DNA from: Roseivivax halodurans JCM 10272
GTDB lineage: Bacteria > Pseudomonadota > Alphaproteobacteria > Rhodobacterales > Rhodobacteraceae
DNA length: 64,000 nucleotides
Direction of reading: 5' to 3'
Assembly (NCBI RefSeq): GCF_000521785.1
Contig: NZ_JALZ01000001.1
Span: forward strand, 62,001-126,000
A program made the position numbers and the translations under genes. The number at the start of each line of letters is the position of its first letter. The first letter of the stretch is position 1. Below are positions 10,389 through 21,749 of this stretch, in pieces. The notes under the pieces were generated by a model, which worked only from the letters and a program-made list of their open reading frames with translations, searched no databases and had not been told where the DNA came from.

Positions 10389-10556
10389 TCTTTCGCGCCC
10401 GGCGGAGCGGGGCGGCGTGAACGCCACGCGCCGGACCCGGTTCCGCCAGTTGCGGTAAGATCGGACCGGACACGCCCCGCGGATTGGGAGTTGAGGATCG
10501 AGAGCCAGCCCGGGACGGGCCAGCCATCTCCTCCCAACCAACGGACGGACCAAGTC

Positions 10557-11381
10557 ATGTTCCACCATTCCTCGAAGCTTCAATACGAGGTCCGCGTCGA
10601 CACGCCGGATCCCGTCTTCGCCAAGTATCTCCAGCAGGCCATCGGCGGTGTCGAGGGCGAGATCCGCGTCGCCATGCAGTACATGTTCCAGGCCATGGGC
10701 GCGCGCGGCGACGCCAAGTACCGCGACATGCTGATGATGACCGCCACCGAAGAGCTCAGCCATATCGAGTTCCTCGGTCACGCGGTCGCGCTCAATCTCG
10801 AGGGCGCACCGGTCAGCGTCCAGGAAGACGCCGCCAGGGACCCGGTCGTGAACGCGATCATGGGCGGGGCGAACCCGCGCCACATCCTCTCCTCGGGCCT
10901 CTCGGCCATGCCGGTGAACTCGAACGGCGTGCCCTTCGACATGAGCCACGTCTACGCGACCGGCAACCTCGCCGCCGACATGATGGCGAACGCGACGGCG
11001 GAATCGGGCGGCCGCGTGCTCGCCTCGCGGCTCTACAACATGACGGACGACAAGGGCATGAAGGACATGCTGTCGTTCCTCATCGCGCGCGACACCATGC
11101 ACCAGGAGCAATGGCTCGCGGTGATCGAGGAGCTCGGCGGCTGGAGCCAGCAGCTTCCGATCCCGAATTCGACGCCCGAAGACCACGAGGCGACAGAGCA
11201 CAGCTACTACTTCCTCAACACCTCCCTCGACGAGCCGACGCCGGAAGGCCGTTGGACCTCGGGCCCCTCGCTCGACGGCCGCTCGGAATTCTCCAAGCGC
11301 GAGAAGGTCGAGCCTCAGGGCCAGAAACCCGACCTCGGCACCGCGCGGCCGGGATCCGGCACCCAGACGGAACAGCAGTAA
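10557..11381 (+). CDS. Manganese catalase
   Basis: This enzyme splits hydrogen peroxide using a dimanganese centre, giving protection without haem. The 274-residue protein has the ferritin-like four-helix core. The five metal ligands expected from the structurally known Lactobacillus enzyme are in place: E35, E66 and H69 (TATEELSH), E149 (ATAES) and H182 (ARDTMHQEQW). The C-terminus (about 230-274) is polar and glycine/proline rich, a tail that wraps around neighbouring subunits in known structures. The ATG at 10557 gives the canonical MFHHSSKLQY; an upstream in-frame start at 10491 would add residues foreign to the family. A strong stem-loop follows the stop codon. Stress-type manganese catalases are common in soil and marine alphaproteobacteria. 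Confidence 0.95.
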   Translation: MFHHSSKLQYEVRVDTPDPVFAKYLQQAIGGVEGEIRVAMQYMFQAMGARGDAKYRDMLMMTATEELSHIEFLGHAVALNLEGAPVSVQEDAARDPVVNAIMGGANPRHILSSGLSAMPVNSNGVPFDMSHVYATGNLAADMMANATAESGGRVLASRLYNMTDDKGMKDMLSFLIARDTMHQEQWLAVIEELGGWSQQLPIPNSTPEDHEATEHSYYFLNTSLDEPTPEGRWTSGPSLDGRSEFSKREKVEPQGQKPDLGTARPGSGTQTEQQ

Positions 11382-12047: not shown

Positions 12048-13139
12048 ATGAACGACCAATTCGCGACGGCCATGCGCCGGGCGCTCGAGAAGACGCGTGC
12101 CGGCGATCCGCACGGCGCCACGACCATGCTGCAGGACGTCCTCGCGGGCCGCTCCGCGACCGAAGACGAGCCGTGCTGCGGTCCCTGCGCGGAAGCCGCC
12201 AAGCAGGAAGGCCCCGGCCGATCCAGAGCCGGACGGCTCATGGAGGGGCTCGGCCTCAAGGGCGGCGGCCTCGACCTCTCGGCCCTGTCGGGTCTCGGCG
12301 GCCAGGCCGGCGGCATGACCAAGGCCACCCGCGCCAAGGTTCCGGCGGGCGCCACCGTCGAGACGCGGCAGCATGGCGGCGCATCCGGGGCGCGGTCCTA
12401 CCGCCTCTTCGTACCATCGGACCGGTCCGAACCGCTCAAGGGCGTCGTTCTGATGCTGCACGGCTGCACGCAGACGCCGGAGGATTTCGCGGCCGGGACC
12501 CGCATGGATTTCGCGGCCGAGAAGGCCGGTTTCGTCGTCGCCTATCCCGAGCAGACCGGCCGCCACAACGCGCAATCCTGCTGGAACTGGTTCCGGCCCG
12601 AGGACCAGGCGCGAAACGGCGGCGAGGCGGCGCTGCTGGCCGGGCTCGGACAGGCCCTCGCGACGGAATTCGACTGCGAGGGCCGCGTCTATGCCGCGGG
12701 CCTCTCGGCGGGCGGCGCCATGGCGGCGATCCTCGCCGAGAGCCATCCCGACACCTTTGCGGCCATCGGCGTGCATTCCGGGCTGCCCGCGGGCGCCGCG
12801 CGCGACGTGCCCTCCGCCTTCGCCGCCATGCGGGGCGACACCCGGAGCGGCCTTGCCGCGAGCCGGCCCGCCATCGTCTTTCACGGCGATGCCGACCGCA
12901 CCGTCGCGGCCAGCAATGCCGGGACCATCGTCGCGGGCAGCGGCATCGAGCAGACCGAGAGCGGCAACGGCCGCACATGGACCCGCCTCGTCACCGCCGA
13001 GGGCTCCGAGCTCTGGCGTGTCGAGGGCGCGGGGCACGCGTGGTTCGGGGGCGATCCCTCGGGCTCCTATGCGGACCCGGCAGGCCCGGACGCCTCCACC
13101 GAAATGCTGCGCTTCTTCGCAGAACAGGAGCAGAAATGA
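12048..13139 (+). CDS. Polyhydroxyalkanoate/PHB depolymerase-family esterase
   Basis: This 363-residue alpha/beta hydrolase belongs to the PHB depolymerase (Esterase_phd) family, which hydrolyses short-chain polyesters or related esters. The catalytic domain spans about 110-360: the oxyanion region MLHGCTQTPEDF (137-148), nucleophile box GLSAGG with S220, an acidic residue in HGDADRTV (near 284) and the histidine in GAGHAWFGG (near 328). There is no signal peptide; the first 100 residues are a polar, glycine-rich N-terminus with a cysteine cluster (CCGPC, 43-47), so the protein is probably intracellular. It follows the ribbon-helix-helix regulator by 32 bases and overlaps the next gene by ATGA. 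A role in mobilising intracellular polyester granules is plausible but not shown; no phaC or phasin gene is nearby. Confidence 0.85.
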   Translation: MNDQFATAMRRALEKTRAGDPHGATTMLQDVLAGRSATEDEPCCGPCAEAAKQEGPGRSRAGRLMEGLGLKGGGLDLSALSGLGGQAGGMTKATRAKVPAGATVETRQHGGASGARSYRLFVPSDRSEPLKGVVLMLHGCTQTPEDFAAGTRMDFAAEKAGFVVAYPEQTGRHNAQSCWNWFRPEDQARNGGEAALLAGLGQALATEFDCEGRVYAAGLSAGGAMAAILAESHPDTFAAIGVHSGLPAGAARDVPSAFAAMRGDTRSGLAASRPAIVFHGDADRTVAASNAGTIVAGSGIEQTESGNGRTWTRLVTAEGSELWRVEGAGHAWFGGDPSGSYADPAGPDASTEMLRFFAEQEQK

Positions 13140-14272
13140 CCTATACCCTCACCTTCGACGCCGTATCCGAACCGCAACCCGGTCCCAAATGGCGCGCCCG
13201 CTGGGACCTCTCGTGGCCCGCCTATCGCAGCTGGTTCGAGGCAAGCGGCGGCCCGTCCGGGCCGAGCCGGGAGGAATGCGAGGAGGCGCTCGCCCGCCAT
13301 ATGCCGGAACTCGTGCCGGTGCATCGCCACCTGACCATGCTTGCAGGCGGCGACGATCTCGCCGCGCGGTTCCTCTCGACCTGGTGCCCGCCGCCCTATC
13401 TCGGCGGCTGCTCAGTTGCGGCGTTCTCGCGGGACGGCACGGCGCATCTCGTCCGCAACTACGACCTCTCGCCCGACCTCAACGAGGGCCTGCTGCTCCG
13501 CACCGAATGGACCGGAACGCCGGTGATGGGCATGACCGAATTCCTCTGGGGGCTCTCCGACGGGGTGAACGGCCACGGGCTCTCCATCGCGCTCGCCTTC
13601 GGCGGCACGACCCGAACGGGGCAGGGGTTCGGGATCTGCACGATCCTGCGCTACGTGCTCGAGACCTGCCGCACCGTGCCCGACGCGCGGAAGGTTCTGG
13701 CGCGTGTTCCGTCCCACATGGATTACAACATCGTCCTCGCCGATGCCGCGGGACAGACGGCTTCGGTCGAGATGCATGCGGGCGGGGGCTGCACCGCTCG
13801 GACGCCCGCGATCGCGACCAACCATCAGCTCGATATGCCTCTGCCGGACAAGGCCGCATTCACCCGCACGGTCGAGCGGCGCGCGCGGCTCTCGCATCTT
13901 CTGATGCGCTCCCGCCCCATCGAGGTCGCGATCCGCGACTTCCTCGCGCCGCCGCTCCACCAGACCGACTACGCCCGCGGCTTCGGAACGCTCTTCACCG
14001 CTGCCTATGCGCCGCGCGAGCGGTCGATGCGCCTGCTCTGGCCCGATTGCGAAATCGCCCAGAGCCTCGACGACTTCGCCGAGCTCAGCCACACCGCCCA
14101 GTTCGGCGCGGCGGAGAAGGTCGGGACTGCGGACGAGACGCCCGGCGCGTCCGCCGCCGACCTGATCGCGCACGTGCCCCCGAACCGGCGCAAGGCGGCG
14201 GAAGAGTGGCTTCGCAAGGCACAGGCGGGACAGGTGGACTGGACCGCGTTCGGGCGGCTTTTCGCCGCCTGA
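13136..14272 (+). CDS. C45-type autoproteolytic acyltransferase/hydrolase
   Basis: This 378-residue protein resembles the C45 peptidase family (acyl-CoA:6-aminopenicillanate acyltransferase-like Ntn hydrolases), which self-cleave before a catalytic cysteine and hydrolyse or transfer acyl-amide groups. The likely nucleophile is C92 in LGGCSVAAF, followed by the family-typical VRNYD (107-111). Further along, GVNGHGLSIALAFGG and CRTVPDARKVLARVP fit the Ntn fold. The N-terminal 91 residues would be the short chain after cleavage. No signal peptide is visible. The start overlaps the esterase stop (ATGA), so the two enzymes are made together. Coupling an esterase and an Ntn acyltransferase under one regulator suggests successive hydrolysis of an acylated compound; the substrate is unknown. 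Confidence 0.75.
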   Translation: MTYTLTFDAVSEPQPGPKWRARWDLSWPAYRSWFEASGGPSGPSREECEEALARHMPELVPVHRHLTMLAGGDDLAARFLSTWCPPPYLGGCSVAAFSRDGTAHLVRNYDLSPDLNEGLLLRTEWTGTPVMGMTEFLWGLSDGVNGHGLSIALAFGGTTRTGQGFGICTILRYVLETCRTVPDARKVLARVPSHMDYNIVLADAAGQTASVEMHAGGGCTARTPAIATNHQLDMPLPDKAAFTRTVERRARLSHLLMRSRPIEVAIRDFLAPPLHQTDYARGFGTLFTAAYAPRERSMRLLWPDCEIAQSLDDFAELSHTAQFGAAEKVGTADETPGASAADLIAHVPPNRRKAAEEWLRKAQAGQVDWTAFGRLFAA

Positions 14273-14306: not shown

Positions 14307-14918
14307 TCAGCCGGCCCGAGGCCGCGAGAGGCAGCGGTCGCTGCACGCGCCGTCCGGCAATTCGAAGACGTCCATGAGGTAGGCCGGGAAGCAATGCCGC
14401 GCCCGCGCCCAGCGGCCGAGATGGTGCGCAATAAGGTCGGCCGCCTCGCGCCCTCCCAGCGTCTCGTCCGTCGCTCCGAGCCAGTTGACCGACACCACGC
14501 GGCACCTCGGCGCGGCGCGGGCATCGATGGTCTCGGCCAGCGACGCGATCTCGTCCGGCTGCAGAAAATACAGCATCTCCGACAGGACGACGAGGTCGGG
14601 GGCGCCCGCGGGAAAGACCGAGGCGTCCCCCTCGATGACGGTCACATGACCGAACCGCGCCAGCCGCGCGCGCGCCATCGCGGCCGCCACGGGGATGCAT
14701 TCGACCACGGTCAGCCTCTCGCAGCGGGGCGCCAGCCGCTCCGCCAGGACACCGTTGCCGCAGCCGATCTCCACCGCATGTCGAAGCCGCCCGGGCCCCG
14801 CCGCCTTGATTGTCTCGGCGTGCTTCTCCCGTTCGTAGGCGCTGCTGGCATGATCCCAGGGATCGTCGCTCCGGGCGTAGATCCCGGCAAGGTGGCGCAG
14901 GGTTTCAGGGGCCGGCAT
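14307..14918 (-). CDS. NodS-like SAM-dependent methyltransferase
   Basis: This 203-residue class I methyltransferase has the SAM-binding motif VEIGCGNGVLAERLA (49-63), an acidic residue ending strand 2 (VVECIP, 71-76), the motif for strand 3 (VIEGDAS) and post-motif LVVLSEMLYFL. The N-terminal layout (YARSDDPWDHASSAYEREKH) is typical of the NodS family, whose best-known member methylates the amino group of chitooligosaccharides. It is the last gene of a four-gene operon and overlaps the preceding PIG-L deacetylase by 14 bases. Since that deacetylase would expose a free amine, N-methylation of the product is an attractive hypothesis. No other nodulation gene is present, so symbiosis is not implied. 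Confidence 0.8.
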   Translation of the reverse strand: MPAPETLRHLAGIYARSDDPWDHASSAYEREKHAETIKAAGPGRLRHAVEIGCGNGVLAERLAPRCERLTVVECIPVAAAMARARLARFGHVTVIEGDASVFPAGAPDLVVLSEMLYFLQPDEIASLAETIDARAAPRCRVVSVNWLGATDETLGGREAADLIAHHLGRWARARHCFPAYLMDVFELPDGACSDRCLSRPRAG

Positions 14919-15615
14919 GGAAGATTTCCGGATGGTCGAGGAAATGGGCCTGGTCCGCCTTGGTCATCACGAACCCGTCCGGATCGTCGCCGATGAGCGG
15001 GTACATCTGGCTGGCATGCTGGCCGAGCGCGCGGGACTTGGCCGCGCGCGCGTCCGGCGCGGGGTCGAGAACCTTCATGCCCGGCGGCGCCTCTCCCGGC
15101 GCGAAACGGCCCCAGATAGGATAGGCCAGCCGCGCCGTACGCGGCCTGTGCCGCAACGCGCGCGTGAGAAGCGCCGCACTGCGCTTGTGATCGATGTGGG
15201 GATCGCCGGACCAGGCCGCGAGCACGAGCGCACCGTCCGGGATGAGCGCGGCCAGCCGGCCCGCGCAGGCATCGTCCGCGCCCGGCTCCGGCAGATGGCA
15301 ATCGGGATAGCCCATCCAGAAGACCTCCGCATGCGACGCAAGAAGGGACAGCGCCGACTCAAGCTCCGCGCGGCGCAACCCGGCCAGCCGGGCCCTCGGC
15401 CAGACGCGCGAGCGCGGATGCGAGGCGGAGCCGTCGGTCATGCAGATCACGCGGCAGGGCATCCCGGCCGCATTCGCCTCGTAGAGAAGCGCGCCGCAGC
15501 CAAGCGTCTCGTCGTCGGGATGCGGCGCGACCACCACGAGCGCCGAATGCCCGGCAAGAAGATCCGCGGCGGAGGTCCGGTTGGCGGCGGAAGCGGCGAC
15601 GAGAAGCGGGGTCAC
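14905..15615 (-). CDS. PIG-L/LmbE family deacetylase
   Basis: This 236-residue protein belongs to the zinc-dependent PIG-L (LmbE) family, which removes acetyl groups from N-acetylglucosamine-type or related amide substrates. The metal and catalytic motif AxPHPDDETLG is at residues 30-39, and the second metal ligand is the histidine of GDPHIDHK (about 153-160). The start is GTG at 15615, overlapping the stop of the acyl-CoA-dehydrogenase-like gene by GTGA. The end overlaps the NodS-like gene by 14 bases. Within the operon it probably deacetylates a product made by the upstream glycosyltransferase. NCBI-type fusions of this deacetylase with a methyltransferase exist in other bacteria as far as I recall, which supports a sequential reaction. 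Confidence 0.85.
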   Translation of the reverse strand: MTPLLVAASAANRTSAADLLAGHSALVVVAPHPDDETLGCGALLYEANAAGMPCRVICMTDGSASHPRSRVWPRARLAGLRRAELESALSLLASHAEVFWMGYPDCHLPEPGADDACAGRLAALIPDGALVLAAWSGDPHIDHKRSAALLTRALRHRPRTARLAYPIWGRFAPGEAPPGMKVLDPAPDARAAKSRALGQHASQMYPLIGDDPDGFVMTKADQAHFLDHPEIFHAGP

Positions 15616-16688
15616 GCGAGATACCAGGCTCGTGCGGTGGCCTCGCTCTCGCGGAGCCGGCGGATCGCGGTCTCGCCGAGCCCGTCGGGATTCGCCTGGC
15701 GGAGGTAGAATTGCAGATCGCGCCGGTGCCGCTCCACCGGATGGTGCGTCGCGAACGACGCCGCGCCAAGCGCCGCGTCCATCTCCTGCATGAGCGTGAC
15801 CGCCTCGCGCTCGACCGTCAGCCGCGCGAGCATGGCTGGGCCGGCATCCTCCTGCTGCGCCTCCGTCCGCTCGACGAGCCCGGCAGCCCGATGAAGCCAG
15901 AGCCGTGCCGTCTCGCACGCCGTCACCATGCGGCGGAGCCGCGCCGCCTGAAGCGGCGCCTCTGCCTGCCCCCGCGCCTCGAGCTGCGCGGCCGTCGCCC
16001 GGGTCATCGCGCGCATCGCGCCCATCTGGACGGCCGCGTACCGCCAGACGCCGCCCTGGAAATGCGGCTCGCGCAGGTAGTCGCCCGGCGCGCCCAGAAG
16101 GTCTTCGGACCCGATCTCGATCCCGTCGAGATCGGCCCGGCCCGAGGCCGTCGCCTTCATGCCCGAGACCGACCATTCGTCCGGAAAGAGCCGCCCCTCG
16201 AGGCGGGCGCGATCGACCATGACCAGCTGCACCTCGCCCGCATCGTCCCGCGTGGTGACGATCGCGTGGTCGAGGATGTCGGCCCCCGAGGCGAAGAGCT
16301 TCTCTCCGCTCAGCCGTCCGTTCGACAGCCGCACCGGGGCCTTGCCCTCCGCGCCCCAGACGCCGAAGAGCGCGCCGCAGGCGGTCGCCTCGCGCCATTC
16401 GGCCGCCCCGCTGTGGCCGGCATAGAGCGCCAGGAGCTTCACCGCGTTGACGTGGCCCTCGAAGAGCCGTCCGGCCGACAGGTTCGCCGCCCCGACGGCC
16501 GCGAGCGTCTCGACGAGATGCCCGGGATCGCCCGGCTCGTGCGCGAGCCCGTCGCCTCCGGCCTCGCACGGCGCGCAGCCCGCCAGCACGCCGGCCTCGC
16601 GCAGATGCGCCACGAGCGGCGCGATCGGCGGCTCTCCGGGCCCCGGCGGCGACAGTTCGGTGAGGGCCCGCGTGAGATCGCGCATCAT
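15612..16688 (-). CDS. Acyl-CoA dehydrogenase-like protein
   Basis: This 358-residue protein resembles the acyl-CoA dehydrogenase flavoprotein family: an N-terminal helical region, a middle beta-domain (about 110-210, with GEKLFASGADILDHAIV and WSVSGMKATASG), and a C-terminal helical domain. It is shorter than typical members (about 380 residues), and I cannot place the usual catalytic glutamate with confidence, so it may act on an unusual substrate or have lost dehydrogenase activity. It overlaps both neighbours by 4 bases, so it is part of the same biosynthetic operon as the glycosyltransferase, the deacetylase and the methyltransferase. It is more likely to act in a biosynthetic route than in beta-oxidation. 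Confidence 0.75.
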   Translation of the reverse strand: MMRDLTRALTELSPPGPGEPPIAPLVAHLREAGVLAGCAPCEAGGDGLAHEPGDPGHLVETLAAVGAANLSAGRLFEGHVNAVKLLALYAGHSGAAEWREATACGALFGVWGAEGKAPVRLSNGRLSGEKLFASGADILDHAIVTTRDDAGEVQLVMVDRARLEGRLFPDEWSVSGMKATASGRADLDGIEIGSEDLLGAPGDYLREPHFQGGVWRYAAVQMGAMRAMTRATAAQLEARGQAEAPLQAARLRRMVTACETARLWLHRAAGLVERTEAQQEDAGPAMLARLTVEREAVTLMQEMDAALGAASFATHHPVERHRRDLQFYLRQANPDGLGETAIRRLRESEATARAWYLA

Positions 16689-17665
16689 GCGACGAGCGGC
16701 GCCGTCGCGGCGGTCCCGGTCACGAGGGGGCGCACCCTGGCGTCCATGAAGGCGCGAAGCCGGGGCAGCTCCCGCTCGAGATCGCTCAGCCGCATGGGCC
16801 GCTCCGCATCGGGCAGGCACGCGGTCCGATCCCCGGAACGGGCCGCCTGCCAGACGCGGCGCACGTCGGCCGCGCGCAGGAAAGCCGCATCGGTTAGCGG
16901 ATCGGGATCGCCGAGCCGCCGACGCAGCGTGTCCGCCATGCCCCCGGCCGCCCGGCCCACGAGGCGCGGAGAGACCACCGCATGCGCCCGGGAGCAGTAA
17001 TCGATCCGCGCGCCCCGTCGCCCGGCACATCGCGCGAGCGCGCGATCCTCGCCGCAGGCCGCGTCCGGAAAGCCGCCGATGGCCTCGTAGAGCGCGCGCG
17101 ACAGCGCCATGCAGGCGCCCGAGGCCACGTAATGCGGCAACGGCCCCGGAGCCCGCCTGCCGCAGAGAAGGTCGATCCCGAACCGCAGCTCCCGCATGAG
17201 CTCACCATAGGGCGTCGCGATCCGGTCGTGCCGGCGCATGCAAGGGGCGTTCCGCACCTCCGGGGCCAGCGAGAACGATATCGTCCCGCAGACGAGATCC
17301 GCCCCGGCCGAGACGCCGCTGCGGAACGCCTCGAGGCAATCCGGCGCCAGCTGGGAATCCGCATCGGTCGTGACGAGGATGTCCGTCTCGGGAGAAAGCG
17401 CCACGGCCATCCGCGCCGCCAGCCGGCGCGCGGTGCCCGCATTCGCCTCGCCCGGTGCGAGCGTTGCGCTCTCGACCCGGACGCGGCAATGGCGCGCCTT
17501 GAAGCCGGAGGCGAGGCGCGCCGTGTCGTCCGTGCAGCCATTGGCGAAGATCAGCACGTCGACCTGCGCCCTCGTCCGGGCTGCTGCACGGTCGAGCGCC
17601 GCGAGATGCGCCGGCAGGCCTTCGGCCTCGTTGCAGGCCGGAACGGCGACTGTGATATGCGTCAA
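16685..17665 (-). CDS. Family 2 glycosyltransferase
   Basis: This 326-residue protein has the GT-A fold of family 2 glycosyltransferases. The N-terminus ITVAVPACNEAEGLPAHLAA starts the nucleotide-sugar domain, the DxD-type motif is TTDADSQ (99-105), and GGFPDAACGEDRALARC (about 200) is the acceptor-side region. There are no membrane helices, so it acts in the cytoplasm. The start is TTG at 17665: an in-frame stop lies only six codons upstream (17681-17683) and no ATG or GTG fits. It is the first gene of the four-gene operon and sets its theme: transfer of a sugar to an acceptor, later deacetylated and methylated. The sugar donor and acceptor cannot be read from the sequence. Confidence 0.82.
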   Translation of the reverse strand: MTHITVAVPACNEAEGLPAHLAALDRAAARTRAQVDVLIFANGCTDDTARLASGFKARHCRVRVESATLAPGEANAGTARRLAARMAVALSPETDILVTTDADSQLAPDCLEAFRSGVSAGADLVCGTISFSLAPEVRNAPCMRRHDRIATPYGELMRELRFGIDLLCGRRAPGPLPHYVASGACMALSRALYEAIGGFPDAACGEDRALARCAGRRGARIDYCSRAHAVVSPRLVGRAAGGMADTLRRRLGDPDPLTDAAFLRAADVRRVWQAARSGDRTACLPDAERPMRLSDLERELPRLRAFMDARVRPLVTGTAATAPLVA

Positions 17666-17948
17666 GATCGAATGCCCCGCGTGTCAGGATGCGCTGCGGC
17701 CAACATTCCCCCGCGGCCCGGGTTCCGCCGGACGGCCCCCGATGCTCAAATCACGTCTGGACCTGCCGCTGCCGCCGACCCGATTTCGGAGCCCGCATCG
17801 GGTTCGGCCCGCGCGCCCGGAGGCGGCGTGTGACGCCTGTCACGATGGGGCACGGCACCACGAGCCCGCGAAGACCCGCGCGATATGGCGGATCGCGGCG
17901 CGCGGATGTCCCTTCAACCGTCAGGGCCCGGCGCCGGGCCGCCTTGCC
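17666..17948. other. Intergenic region between the rimK fusion and the glycosyltransferase operon
   Basis: This stretch of 283 bases lies between two minus-strand genes. It should contain the promoter of the glycosyltransferase operon and the 3' region for transcripts coming from rimK. I see no convincing -35/-10 pair, terminator or small gene. Confidence 0.5.
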
Positions 17949-19364
17949 TCAGCCCAGCAGCTTGCGCTTGCGCACCGGCACCGGGCGCACCCGCGCCTCG
18001 ATGTGATCGTAGAGCGTGCCGGCGATGTTCTTCTTCGACGCCGCCTCGATCCCCTCGAGCCCCGGCGAGGAGTTCACCTCGAGCACCTTTGGACCGCTCT
18101 CGGAGCGCAGAAGATCGACGCCCGCGAGGTTCAGCTTGAAGGCCCGCGCCGCGCGCAGCGCCGTGTCACGTTCCTCGCGGCTGATCCGCACCACCTGCGC
18201 CGAGCCGCCCCGATGCAGGTTCGAACGGAAATCGCCGTCCGCCCCGGTGCGCTTCATCGAGGCGACGACCTTGCCGCCGACGACGAGGCATCGGATGTCC
18301 TCGCCCGCCGCCTCCTTGACGAAATCCTGCACGAGGAAGTTCGCGCGAAGCCCCCGGAAGGCGTCGATCACCGATTGCGCCGCCTTCTTGGTCTCGGCGA
18401 GGACCACGCCCTTGCCTTGGGTCGATTCCAGCAGCTTGACGATCATCGGCGCGGTGCCGACGAGCCGCATCAGGCTGTCGGTGTCCTTGGGCGAGGAGGC
18501 AAACGCGGTGTTCGGCATGCCGATCTTGTGCCGCGCCATCAACTGGTGCGCGTAGAGCTTGTCGCGCGAGGCCGTGATGCCCTCGGAGCCGTTCACGACG
18601 AAGGTGCCGATCGTCTCGAACTGCCGGATCACCGCCGTCCCGTAGGAGGTCACGGACGCTCCGATCCGCGGGATCACCGCATCGTAGCGGGGCAGGCGGG
18701 CGCCGTCGTAATGCACCTCGGGCGCCATCGCGTTGATCGCCATGTAGCAGCGCGTCGTGTCGATCACCTCGACCGTGTGGCCGCGCTTCTCGCCCTCCTC
18801 GACGAGTCGCCGGGTGGAGTAATTGTTCTCGCGGCTCAGCACCGCGATCCGGAGCGCCCTGTTGGGGGCCTTCGCGCGCACCGCCTTCGAGGCGTAGACG
18901 TCGAAGGAGAGCTGCGGCTGCAGGAAGCGGTCGGTCGCAACGATGGTGATGTGGTCCTTCAGCGCCTCGCGTCCGAGCAGCATCCGGCTGTTCATCGCGC
19001 CGCGATTGGTCAGCGTCAGCTCGATCGGCCAGTGATCGCCGCCGACCTCGATGGTGCAGCCGATGACGTAGCGGCTCTCGCTCTCGCCGTTCGAGCTCGT
19101 CACCATGCGCCGGTCGATGATCTTGGCCGAGCAGGGGATGACGAGGTCGTCGCGCCCGGGCACCGGATGCACGGTGAAGCGCACCCGCGGCGCCGAGGAC
19201 GCGCCGAAGGTCTCGATGTCGTAGGCATGCAGCGCCGAGGTCCGCGCGCCGGTATCGACCTTGGCCTTGAGCGCGGGCAGACCGAGATCGGGCAGGGCGA
19301 CCCATTCCTCCCATCCGAAGCGGATCAGATCCTGCGCGGGATCGGGGGCCTGGTCGTCATTCAT
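17949..19364 (-). CDS. rimK: RimB-like retropepsin-fold domain fused to RimK-family ATP-grasp ligase
   Basis: This 471-residue protein joins two parts. Residues about 12-165 match the ATP-dependent zinc protease/DUF785 (RimB-like) domain with the aspartic-protease-like signature [15 protein letters not shown] (34-48) and later [10 protein letters not shown]. Residues about 175-465 form an RimK-type ATP-grasp ligase with [14 protein letters not shown], a glycine-rich loop ([10 protein letters not shown]), and metal-binding [13 protein letters not shown] near the C-terminus. RimK adds glutamates to the C-terminus of ribosomal protein S6, and in Pseudomonas RimB, a separate protein, trims or modulates this. 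Here both activities may reside in one chain. The ATG at 19364 starts the soluble N-terminal domain. It stands alone, with DUF2189 upstream on the same strand. Confidence 0.88.
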
Positions 19365-19476
19365 GTGCTGTTCCTCGCCGGGGTCGGGGCCACGGCTACC
19401 AAGGTGCATGGGTCCCGGCAAGGTTCCCCGGCTGGTCCAGGCGTTGCTGCGCTGGAGAGGATGCGGGACCGCCGGA

Positions 19477-19520
19477 CCGGGGCTCCGCCCCGGACCCCGG
19501 AGTATTTTTGCCAAGAAGAA
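19477..19520 (+). repeat. Rhodobacterales-type intergenic repeat/hairpin
   Basis: CCGGGGC-TCC-GCCCCGG (19477-19493) forms a 7-bp hairpin and is followed by a CCCCGGAG stretch and TATTTTTGCCAAGAAGAAG (19503-19521). I recall near-identical hairpins followed by a TATTTTTG and an AAGAAG tail as a widespread intergenic repeat in Rhodobacteraceae genomes. Only one copy occurs in this window. It could act as a terminator for plus-strand transcription. Confidence 0.55.
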
Positions 19521-19546
19521 GCGGGGGATGGCGCGGGGGCTGCGCC

Positions 19547-20332
19547 TCAGCCCAGGGCGCCGAGTTGGTCTGCGCGCCGGTAGAGGTGCCAGCTCGCATG
19601 ACCCAGCACCGGCAGCACGACGAAGAGGCCGAGGAAGGCCGGAAGCATCGCGAGGAATGTCGCGGCGGCGATGATCGCCGCCCAGACCAGCATCACCGCG
19701 GGATTGGCGCGCACGAGCCGGACGCTCCGGCGCATCGCGGTGACGAAATCCACCTCCCGGTCGAGCAGCATCGGCAGGCTCACCGCCGTCAGAGCGAAGA
19801 GGAGGAACGCCAGAACGGCGCCCACCGCAAGTTCGACCGCGATCATCCGCAGCCCGTCGCCCGAAAGGTATGTCGCAAGATCCCCGGGCGGGCCCATCAT
19901 CGCCGACGGTCCCATGAAGAGCGCGAAGAGCATGTGGGCGAGGAAGCTCCAGAAGAGCGTGTAGATCAGGATCACCGCGCCCGCCCAGGGGATCTGCCGC
20001 TCGCTCTGGCGCCAGACGACGCCGAGTACTGCCTCGAAGGTCGGTCGCTCGCCCGCCTCGCGCCGGCGGCTGACCTCGTAGAGCCCGACGGCGAGGAAGG
20101 GCGCCATCATCGGGAAGGCGAGCGTCGCGGTCAGCGTCCAGACGAAGAGCCCCGCACCAAGCTGCCAGAGTCCGAGCCCGAGCGCCACGTAGACCGCCGA
20201 GAAGAAGAGCCCGAATTGCGGCGCCGCGGCGAAATCGGAAAGGCCGGCCCGCAGGATCGCGGCGATGTCGGCGAGGGAGAGCCTGCGGGCCCCTTCGGAT
20301 GCTGCGGCGGGTGGTTCGTTCGTCAGGGTCAT
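19547..20332 (-). CDS. DUF2189 integral membrane protein
   Basis: This 261-residue protein has about six membrane helices and matches the DUF2189 family of inner-membrane proteins with unknown function. The first helical pair starts near residue 40 ([20 protein letters not shown]). The family feature [19 protein letters not shown] (about 72-90) is intact, and the last helices include [21 protein letters not shown]. The N-terminal 35 residues are cytoplasmic and rich in alanine. It is divergent from tgt and lies upstream of the RimB-RimK fusion on the same strand, separated by 182 bases that hold the repeat-like hairpin, so cotranscription is doubtful. Confidence 0.85.
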
Positions 20333-20624
20333 CGCGCACGCTCCTCTCCGGGTGACGCATGGGCAGAGTGTACATCTTCGAGCCGCGCCGGTCGCCGGTC
20401 ACGTGGGCCAGCGGCGACTCGGGAGGGGTGCTTCCAACGGATCGGCGGGGCCCCGAGGCGGTCGGAAGCGGCTTCGACGATACAGATGGGATCCGCCTCG
20501 GGTATCGACGGGCCCCCCGCCGCGAATATGCGGGAAATATCGTACGTTTCGGCCCGGATTTGTTACATATGTTACGAAACGCCGCGTCTTGTGGCGCCCC
20601 TCGGGATGGGGCAGAGGATGGCGC
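20333..20624. promoter_or_regulatory. Divergent promoter region between DUF2189 and tgt
   Basis: This 292-base region separates two divergent genes. Near 20560-20581 lies an AT-rich patch with TTGTTACATATGTTACG, containing the short inverted motif TACATATGTTA and a TATGTT that could serve as a -10 box for tgt about 50 bases before its start. No small gene is evident. Confidence 0.35.
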
Positions 20625-21749
20625 ATGACGTTCCGCTTCACCCTCTCCGGCACCGATGGCGCGGCCCGCACCGGGGCCATCGACACCCCCCGCGGCTCCA
20701 TCCGCACGCCCGCCTTCATGCCCGTCGGCACCGCCGCGACGGTCAAGGGCATGTTCCCCGAAAGCGTGGCCGAGACCGGGGCCGACATCCTCCTCGGCAA
20801 CACCTACCACCTGATGTTGCGGCCGGGGGCGGAGCGGATCGCACATCTTGGCGGCCTGCACGAGTTCATGAACTGGCAAAAGCCGATCCTCACGGATTCC
20901 GGCGGCTTCCAGGTCATGTCGCTATCCGGGCTGCGCAAGCTCACCGAGGAGGGCGTGACCTTCAAGAGCCATATCGACGGCTCGAAGCATTTCCTCAGCC
21001 CCGAAAGATCGATGGAAATTCAGCAGCTTCTGGGTTCAGACATCGTCATGGCCTTCGACGAATGTCCGGCGCTGCCGGCCGATCGGGACCGTATCGCCGA
21101 GAGCATGCGCCTCTCGATGCGCTGGGCGCAGCGCTCGCGCGAGGCCTTCGGCGACCGCCTGGGGCATGCTCTCTTCGGCATCCAGCAGGGTGGGCTCGAA
21201 CGCGATTTCCGTGAGGAAAGCGCCAATGCTCTCAGGGAGATAGGGTTCGAAGGCTATGCGGTCGGCGGCCTTGCCGTGGGCGAGGGCCAGGAGGCGATGT
21301 TCGGCTGCCTCGACTTCGCGACCGACATGCTGCCGCAGGACAAGCCGCGCTATCTCATGGGGGTCGGCAAGCCCGACGACATCGTCGGCGCGGTCAAGCG
21401 CGGTATCGACATGATGGATTGCGTGCTTCCCTCACGCTCCGGCCGCACCGGTCAGGGCTGGACCCGCCGCGGCATGGTCAACGTCAAGAACGCCCGTCAC
21501 GCCGACGATCCCCGCCCGCTCGACGAGGCCTGTACCTGTCCCTGCTGCCGCTCCTATTCGCGGGCCTACCTGCATCACGTCCAGCGCTCGCACGAGATGA
21601 TCTCGGGCATGCTGCTCACCTGGCACAACCTCCATTACTATCAGGAGCTTATGCAGGCGATGCGCGAGGCGATCGCGGCCGGGGCCTTCGCCGCCTTCGA
21701 GGCGGATTTCCACGCGCAGCGGGCCGAGGGGGACATCGAACCGCTCTGA
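20625..21749 (+). CDS. tgt: tRNA-guanine transglycosylase
   Basis: Tgt exchanges guanine 34 for preQ1 in tRNAs with GUN anticodons, a step of queuosine modification. The 374-residue protein has the full-length TIM-barrel. Key motifs are [14 protein letters not shown] (about 54-67), [15 protein letters not shown] with the general-base aspartate (near 89), [26 protein letters not shown], and [11 protein letters not shown] before [12 protein letters not shown] containing the nucleophilic aspartate. The C-terminal zinc site is [16 protein letters not shown]. The ATG at 20625 gives the canonical N-terminus; a nearby ATG at 20618 is in another frame. No queuosine-pathway partners (queA, yajC) are next to it. 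Confidence 0.97.

Follow-up and report, generated by a model that had tools for sequence, protein, structure and literature searches.

Mycothiol, bacillithiol and the amino sugars of aminoglycosides are made through steps in which a glycosyltransferase (GT) is followed by a deacetylase of the PIG-L type, and the lipo-chitooligosaccharide enzymes NodC, NodB and NodS combine glycosyl transfer, de-N-acetylation and N-methylation. Class D flavin monooxygenases, among them DszC, MsuC and the nitrososynthases KijD3 and DnmZ, are built on the acyl-CoA dehydrogenase (ACAD) fold and need no catalytic glutamate. A run of four overlapping genes in a 64,000-nucleotide stretch of Roseivivax halodurans JCM 10272, here called the window, resembles all of these systems: it also pairs a GT with a PIG-L deacetylase, its methyltransferase falls into the NodS Pfam family, and its fourth, ACAD-like protein has the fold of the class D enzymes. 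We know of no product for such a four-enzyme unit, and a search of open-licence papers found no description of the four-gene set among the titles and abstract openings listed. Tentatively, we read the cassette as a stress-linked pathway that may yield a small, soluble amino-sugar compound, de-N-acetylated and N-methylated, through steps that include an unusual flavin oxidation.

The four genes form one conserved, probably biosynthetic cassette. In 69 of 90 other loci, the ACAD gene has relatives of the PIG-L, methyltransferase and GT genes all within 4 kb, so the grouping in the window is not due to chance; an earlier note on this DNA had assigned the four genes to a single pathway, to be doubted should the families rarely be found together. 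The 90 loci comprise the 80 genome loci nearest to the window protein, the best of at least 558 confirmed ACAD-family relatives from a scan of one genome per species over 84,980 species, and ten plasmid loci, and the set therefore describes near relatives best. The plasmid neighbourhoods, ten of which were inspected (the Nostoc record among them carries no annotation), come from a tblastn search of plasmids with the ACAD protein that matched 89 records, the match covering at least 80% of the protein in 37; the weakest are perhaps ordinary ACADs.

In the window, the open reading frames confirm four minus-strand genes that overlap by 4 bases (ATGA, GT/ACAD junction), 4 bases (GTGA, ACAD/PIG-L) and 14 bases (PIG-L/methyltransferase). 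Start codons are a choice, as two of the four genes have longer open frames; the chosen starts are supported by Roseivivax marinus, whose annotation shows the same four genes with identical overlaps of 4, 4 and 14 bases and a GT that begins at the residue matching the TTG start in the window. The claim that the genes must be translated together was too strong, but the overlaps do suggest co-transcription and translational coupling. The GT2, PIG-L and NodS family calls are borne out by Pfam scores of 44.6 bits for Glyco_tranf_2_3 and 38.4 bits for PF00535 (cut-off 23.3), 82.1 bits for PIG-L (cut-off 28.2) and 69.7 bits for NodS PF05401 (cut-off 24); the ACAD-like protein scores 26.9 bits with Acyl-CoA_dh_1 (cut-off 22.4). 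Hydropathy gives no membrane helix in any of the four proteins.

When only the 71 loci with at least 4 kb on both sides of the ACAD gene are considered, 54 are complete; the 17 exceptions are 13 Methylobacterium/Methylorubrum loci, together with Deinococcus, Rubrobacter, a Loktanella and a Sphingomonas. Seven Methylobacterium/Methylorubrum loci (L035, L062, L064, L066, L067, L072, L101) have no partner within 4 kb. Complete sets occur in three phyla, Pseudomonadota, Cyanobacteriota (L033, L112, L113) and Bacteroidota (L077, L084), and partial sets in two more, Deinococcota (L031) and Actinomycetota (L034, L150). Another 22 loci come from the window's phylum outside its class, L138 lying at a contig end and L139 and L164 on short contigs; in the fetched stretch, all four families reach E 1e-5 or better in 15 of them, or in 16 if the weak PIG-L match of L126 (32 bits) is counted. 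Their ACAD proteins are recognisable as the same family by shared invariant residues, and the gene order is ACAD, PIG-L, methyltransferase, GT in 14 of the 15, with L127 being GT-first like the window. An enlarged version with GT4, GT28-like and second GT2 genes is seen at L029, L068, L069, L102, L103, L115, L123 and L135 (L123 without GT4), and at L069 and L123 it includes a gene of the sucrose-phosphate synthase/phosphatase type.

We infer the substrates, step order, oxidation, protective role and product as follows. The soluble GT2 enzyme would join an N-acetylated sugar (probably GlcNAc) to a small acceptor that may be trehalose or one of its relatives; PIG-L would strip off the acetyl group and the NodS-like enzyme methylate the freed amine; the ACAD-fold protein would oxidise the product as a flavin monooxygenase does, not as a dehydrogenase; and the product may protect against drying, osmotic or oxidative stress.

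Outside the window's class, the surroundings of the cassette point clearly to trehalose/alpha-glucan and stress genes; inside the class they do so weakly. Genes for OtsA/OtsB, GlgX, TreY, MalQ or sucrose-phosphate synthase are present in 10 of the 22 out-of-class loci (9 without the sucrose case) and in 1 of 20 controls (Fisher 0.003), in a test that is partly post hoc, the queries having been picked after viewing the neighbourhoods and partly taken from them. The controls were arbitrary stretches of the same or survey-neighbour genomes, searched with the same queries, and measured 16 kb, against 6.7–16 kb for the loci. The names GlgX, TreY, TreZ, MalQ and sucrose-phosphate synthase were assigned in these loci from domain matches, similarity and gene order, with CBM48/alpha-amylase, or GT4 plus sucrose-phosphatase domains, as the Pfam evidence. 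Chance neighbours should be rare, because 15 of these genomes hold in total only 13 GlgX and 15 GT20 matches. Among plasmid loci outside the window's class, 5 of 8 have such sugar genes, three of them in Acinetobacter.

The clearest example is the Comamonas endophytica plasmid NZ_CP106882.1, where otsA, ACAD, PIG-L, methyltransferase, GT and otsB follow one another on one strand with ends that overlap or nearly touch. At L119 and L121, the ACAD gene is directly preceded on its own strand by a GlgX-type gene, with two further alpha-glucan genes upstream, and at L138 a GlgX-type gene is divergent from the cassette. Elsewhere in the window's genome (L158, G000:C11 3654-7563), a PIG-L paralogue, 28% identical to the window PIG-L and with an altered HxDH motif, stands directly behind otsA; otsB lies upstream of otsA, separated from it by about 1 kb that holds a frame on the opposite strand, and the genome has a separate run of four alpha-glucan/trehalose genes. 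The genome's other further PIG-L match, at C12:59080-59397, follows a gene of the TreY type at a distance of about 1.5 kb; it may resemble a catabolic hydratase beside a PrpF-like gene and was not counted. Pseudomonas syringae may also carry the cassette behind glgX.

These neighbourhoods also bear on the alternative that fares best, although we consider it doubtful, namely that the cassette decorates trehalose, an alpha-glucan or an envelope glycan itself, with no separate small molecule. The otsA and otsB genes that flank the cassette in Comamonas, the alpha-glucan genes upstream at L119 and L121 and the extra GT4, GT28-like and second GT2 genes at some loci would all suit such a role, while the lack of membrane helices in the four window proteins and of an exporter or polymerase in the unit speaks against it.

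For the ACAD-like protein, the earlier note had left a choice between desaturation of an acyl chain and a non-canonical flavoenzyme, and had called for a predicted structure and a look at the active site. The AlphaFold model (pLDDT 94.9) has a complete ACAD fold, matched over the whole length, which lies equally close to dehydrogenases and monooxygenases: Z 37.2 and 2.2 Å over 337 residues to 2dvl_A, and Z 37.2 and 2.3 Å over 344 residues to DszC (3x0y_A). Aligned with 49 family members, 12 ACADs from the window's genome or from its relatives served as a ruler; these have glutamate at the MCAD-type position in 2 of 12 and at the IVD-type position in 10 of 12, and the family has it at neither, the MCAD-type position being occupied by P (28), A (20) or T (1) and the IVD-type position by Gly in 49 of 49. 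Judged by this alignment, the protein belongs to a subfamily of the ACAD fold in which the dehydrogenase residue has been lost. The loop bearing the GSD signature is shortened as well.

Against solved proteins, the family profile scores best with DszC (99.2 bits) and MsuC (98.4 bits), followed by the best entries labelled acyl-CoA dehydrogenase, 5gj7 (87.9 bits, "putative") and 4u83 (86.7 bits); DnmZ (73.4 bits) and other monooxygenases are also lower than DszC and MsuC. Because both glutamate positions are empty and the profile matches DszC and MsuC best, an oxygenase-like role appears likelier than dehydrogenation. Residues invariant in 49 of 49 members and not shared with the 12 ACADs include R74, E77, W111, R216, R289, R330, Q331 and D335, a family-specific polar set that would fit a sugar-like substrate better than an acyl chain.

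Two empty glutamate positions argue against a true acyl-CoA dehydrogenase, and together with the absence of acyl-activating and acyl-transfer enzymes from the unit they remove the ground for acyl desaturation and for a surface lipid as product; it is the idea of a non-canonical flavoenzyme that gains. That the protein nevertheless acts as an acyl-CoA or acyl-ACP dehydrogenase and that the product is a glycolipid is unlikely, the above-cut-off Pfam score and the tie in fold being set against the missing glutamates, the shortened loop and the want of an acyl-activating gene. In Deinococcus radiodurans, the ACAD gene (L031 7537-8730) carries a fused N-terminal domain, about 400 residues long, which gave no Pfam or PDB sequence match and has the look of a glycosidase barrel by eye only; a separate homologue (51%) occurs in the Paracoccus subflavus locus L041.

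The deacetylase belongs to the PIG-L/LmbE family by score and by its metal-binding motifs, with H32, D34, D35, E36, H140, D142 and H143 invariant in 12 sequences; its nearest solved relatives are two entries labelled uncharacterized (42.6 and 42.5 bits), followed by diacetylchitobiose deacetylases (39.7). The methyltransferase has NodS as its best solved relative (70.3 bits) and belongs to the NodS superfamily PF05401, although it stays far below the NodS equivalog NF041650 (84.7 bits, cut-off 300). In seven loci (L059, L069, L075, L077 of Pedobacter sp. BMA, L084, L111, L113) the two are a single protein with PIG-L first, in line with the pair of deacetylation and subsequent methylation proposed in the earlier note. 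In Rubrobacter indicoceani, where the PIG-L profile finds no match, the ACAD gene has a PF01522 polysaccharide deacetylase gene immediately before it, as though one sugar deacetylase had taken the place of another. We therefore argue from the fusions and this replacement that PIG-L probably acts on a sugar and the methyltransferase next. The GT, with D101 and D103 invariant in 40 sequences, is modelled as a GT-A fold (pLDDT 94.2), from which the donor sugar is not distinguishable; mannosylglycerate synthase (Z 18.1) ranks below many others.

The same logic of a GT plus a PIG-L deacetylase would serve a cofactor resembling mycothiol or bacillithiol, and the PIG-L protein does match BshB2, with 38.4 bits, far under the cut-off of 195. 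This explanation is quite unlikely, since the four-gene unit, to which the search was confined, holds no cysteine-ligating enzyme.

A possible link to stress lies upstream of the genes. The consensus of EcfG, the general-stress factor, is GGAAC-N16/17-CGTT, and the motif in the window, GGAAC-N16-TGTT, is close to it. In a first scan, 13 of 90 loci had a promoter match, with about 1.8 expected. A second scan used a looser pattern, GGAA[CT]-N15-18-[CT]GTT, in a region set by the HMM-projected start. Among the 42 GT-first loci, counting the window, 12 had an upstream match, compared with 0.62 expected from the same DNA; among the 49 ACAD-first loci there were 3, against an expected 0.72. It should be noted that two patterns were tried and that many of the species are related, so that a Poisson test overstates the enrichment. 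In the window's whole genome, the strict pattern is only mildly enriched (68, compared with 43 for the reversed control), and there are five PhyR_sigma2 matches, four of them over the cut-off. A general-stress promoter common to all lineages was rejected on these counts, and predicted stress control has moderate support, limited to a part of the GT-first group.

A manganese catalase (PF05067, 280.8 bits) is encoded at 10491-11381 (+) of the window, on the other strand about 3 kb downstream of the cassette; in R. marinus, an annotated manganese catalase gene adjoins the cassette on the opposite strand, and in the set rich in Alphaproteobacteria, 14 of 89 stretches contain a KatE-type catalase. 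The spread of the family is patchy. In the window's genus, two of nine genomes have matches below 1e-30, one of these matches being a 42% identical piece at the edge of a contig. Surveys that included known carriers found the ACAD family in 23 of 299 genomes of the phylum and in 7 of 274 of the class of genome G325; with a broader profile, it was found in 10 of 300 genomes from the order of G235 and in 9 of 244 from that of G325. Patchy spread and catalase neighbours are what one might expect of unrelated stress genes that travel together on plasmids or islands; such an origin is very unlikely in view of the tight overlapping runs of the same families across classes and of the gene fusion. We give the least credence of all to a Nod-factor-like lipo-chitooligosaccharide signal, which the combination of GT2, deacetylase and NodS-superfamily methyltransferase had suggested: the GT has no membrane helix (highest 19-residue hydropathy 1.19, not that of a NodC-type membrane synthase), the deacetylase is PIG-L and differs in fold from NodB, as the earlier note had already observed, NodA is absent from the unit and annotated in none of nine annotated plasmid neighbourhoods, and the hosts include Deinococcus and Nostoc.

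Several observations weigh against the proposed stress-linked amino-sugar pathway itself. PIG-L is missing within 4 kb at the 13 Methylobacterium/Methylorubrum loci, seven of which have no partner at all. Dehydrogenases and monooxygenases tie in the fold comparison, the sequence margin in favour of monooxygenases is modest, and the unit contains no flavin reductase. The promoter motif is only near consensus and is missing from 30 of the 42 GT-first loci and from 46 of the 49 ACAD-first loci. No such sugar gene is found in the stretch at 12 of 22 out-of-class and 3 of 8 plasmid loci, and the link is weak for the window's own lineage because only 7 of 89 loci of the set rich in Alphaproteobacteria, for which there is no matched control, are positive. 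Finally, neighbourhood can reflect shared regulation and not a shared pathway.

Table 1. Positions of the cassette genes and the upstream promoter motif in the window.
Feature	Position	Strand	Details
GT2-type soluble glycosyltransferase	17665-16685	minus	326 aa; TTG start; DxD motif TTDADS
ACAD-fold protein without catalytic Glu	16688-15612	minus	358 aa; motif RDLxxYLRQ replaces the catalytic EGT segment
PIG-L/LmbE metal-dependent deacetylase	15615-14905	minus	236 aa; GTG start; PHPDDE and HxDH motifs intact
NodS-superfamily SAM-dependent methyltransferase	14918-14307	minus	203 aa
Candidate EcfG general-stress promoter, near consensus, GGAAC-N16-TGTT	17702-17726	minus	about 37 bases upstream of the GT start

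Two further neighbours lie in the window. Upstream of the cassette, one long frame (17949-20879, minus) combines a RimB-like retropepsin domain (521-655) with a complete RimK ligase (676-960) and so looks like a RimB-RimK fusion, and a gene of the C45 family of autoproteolytic acyltransferases/hydrolases (12173-14272, plus; 151.3 bits) is convergent with the cassette.

Bacteria tolerant of desiccation and radiation are thought to depend on few protectants, for example trehalose, and a conserved four-enzyme unit beside or inside trehalose operons in several lineages points to a protectant missing from this short list. The fullest form of the idea is that several phyla share a widespread, unrecognised stress metabolite, an amino-sugar glycoside, N-methylated, flavin-oxidised and perhaps N-oxygenated, that an ACAD-fold amino-sugar oxygenase helps to make from trehalose or alongside it; we regard it as possible, if rather unlikely. 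With the cassette on plasmids of cultivable strains, among them pPAN2 of Paracoccus pantotrophus DSM 11072, the product should be directly findable.

Taken together, the cassette stands apart from each of the known systems that it resembles. Compared with NodC-NodB-NodS, it has a soluble GT, a PIG-L enzyme in place of the NodB fold, an extra protein of flavoprotein fold and no NodA, and its methyltransferase is far from the NodS equivalog. Compared with the mycothiol, bacillithiol and aminoglycoside steps, its GT is GT2 and not GT4, a methyltransferase and an ACAD-fold protein are added, and the BshB/MshB model scores are far under the cut-off. With DszC, MsuC and KijD3/DnmZ, the ACAD-like protein shares about 17–21% identity, and flavin oxygenation is the predicted chemistry, in a unit without a reductase. 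With the otsAB and treYZ-glgX operons, inside or beside which the cassette lies in several loci outside the window's class, it shares location; to our knowledge, none of its four enzymes is required for trehalose synthesis.

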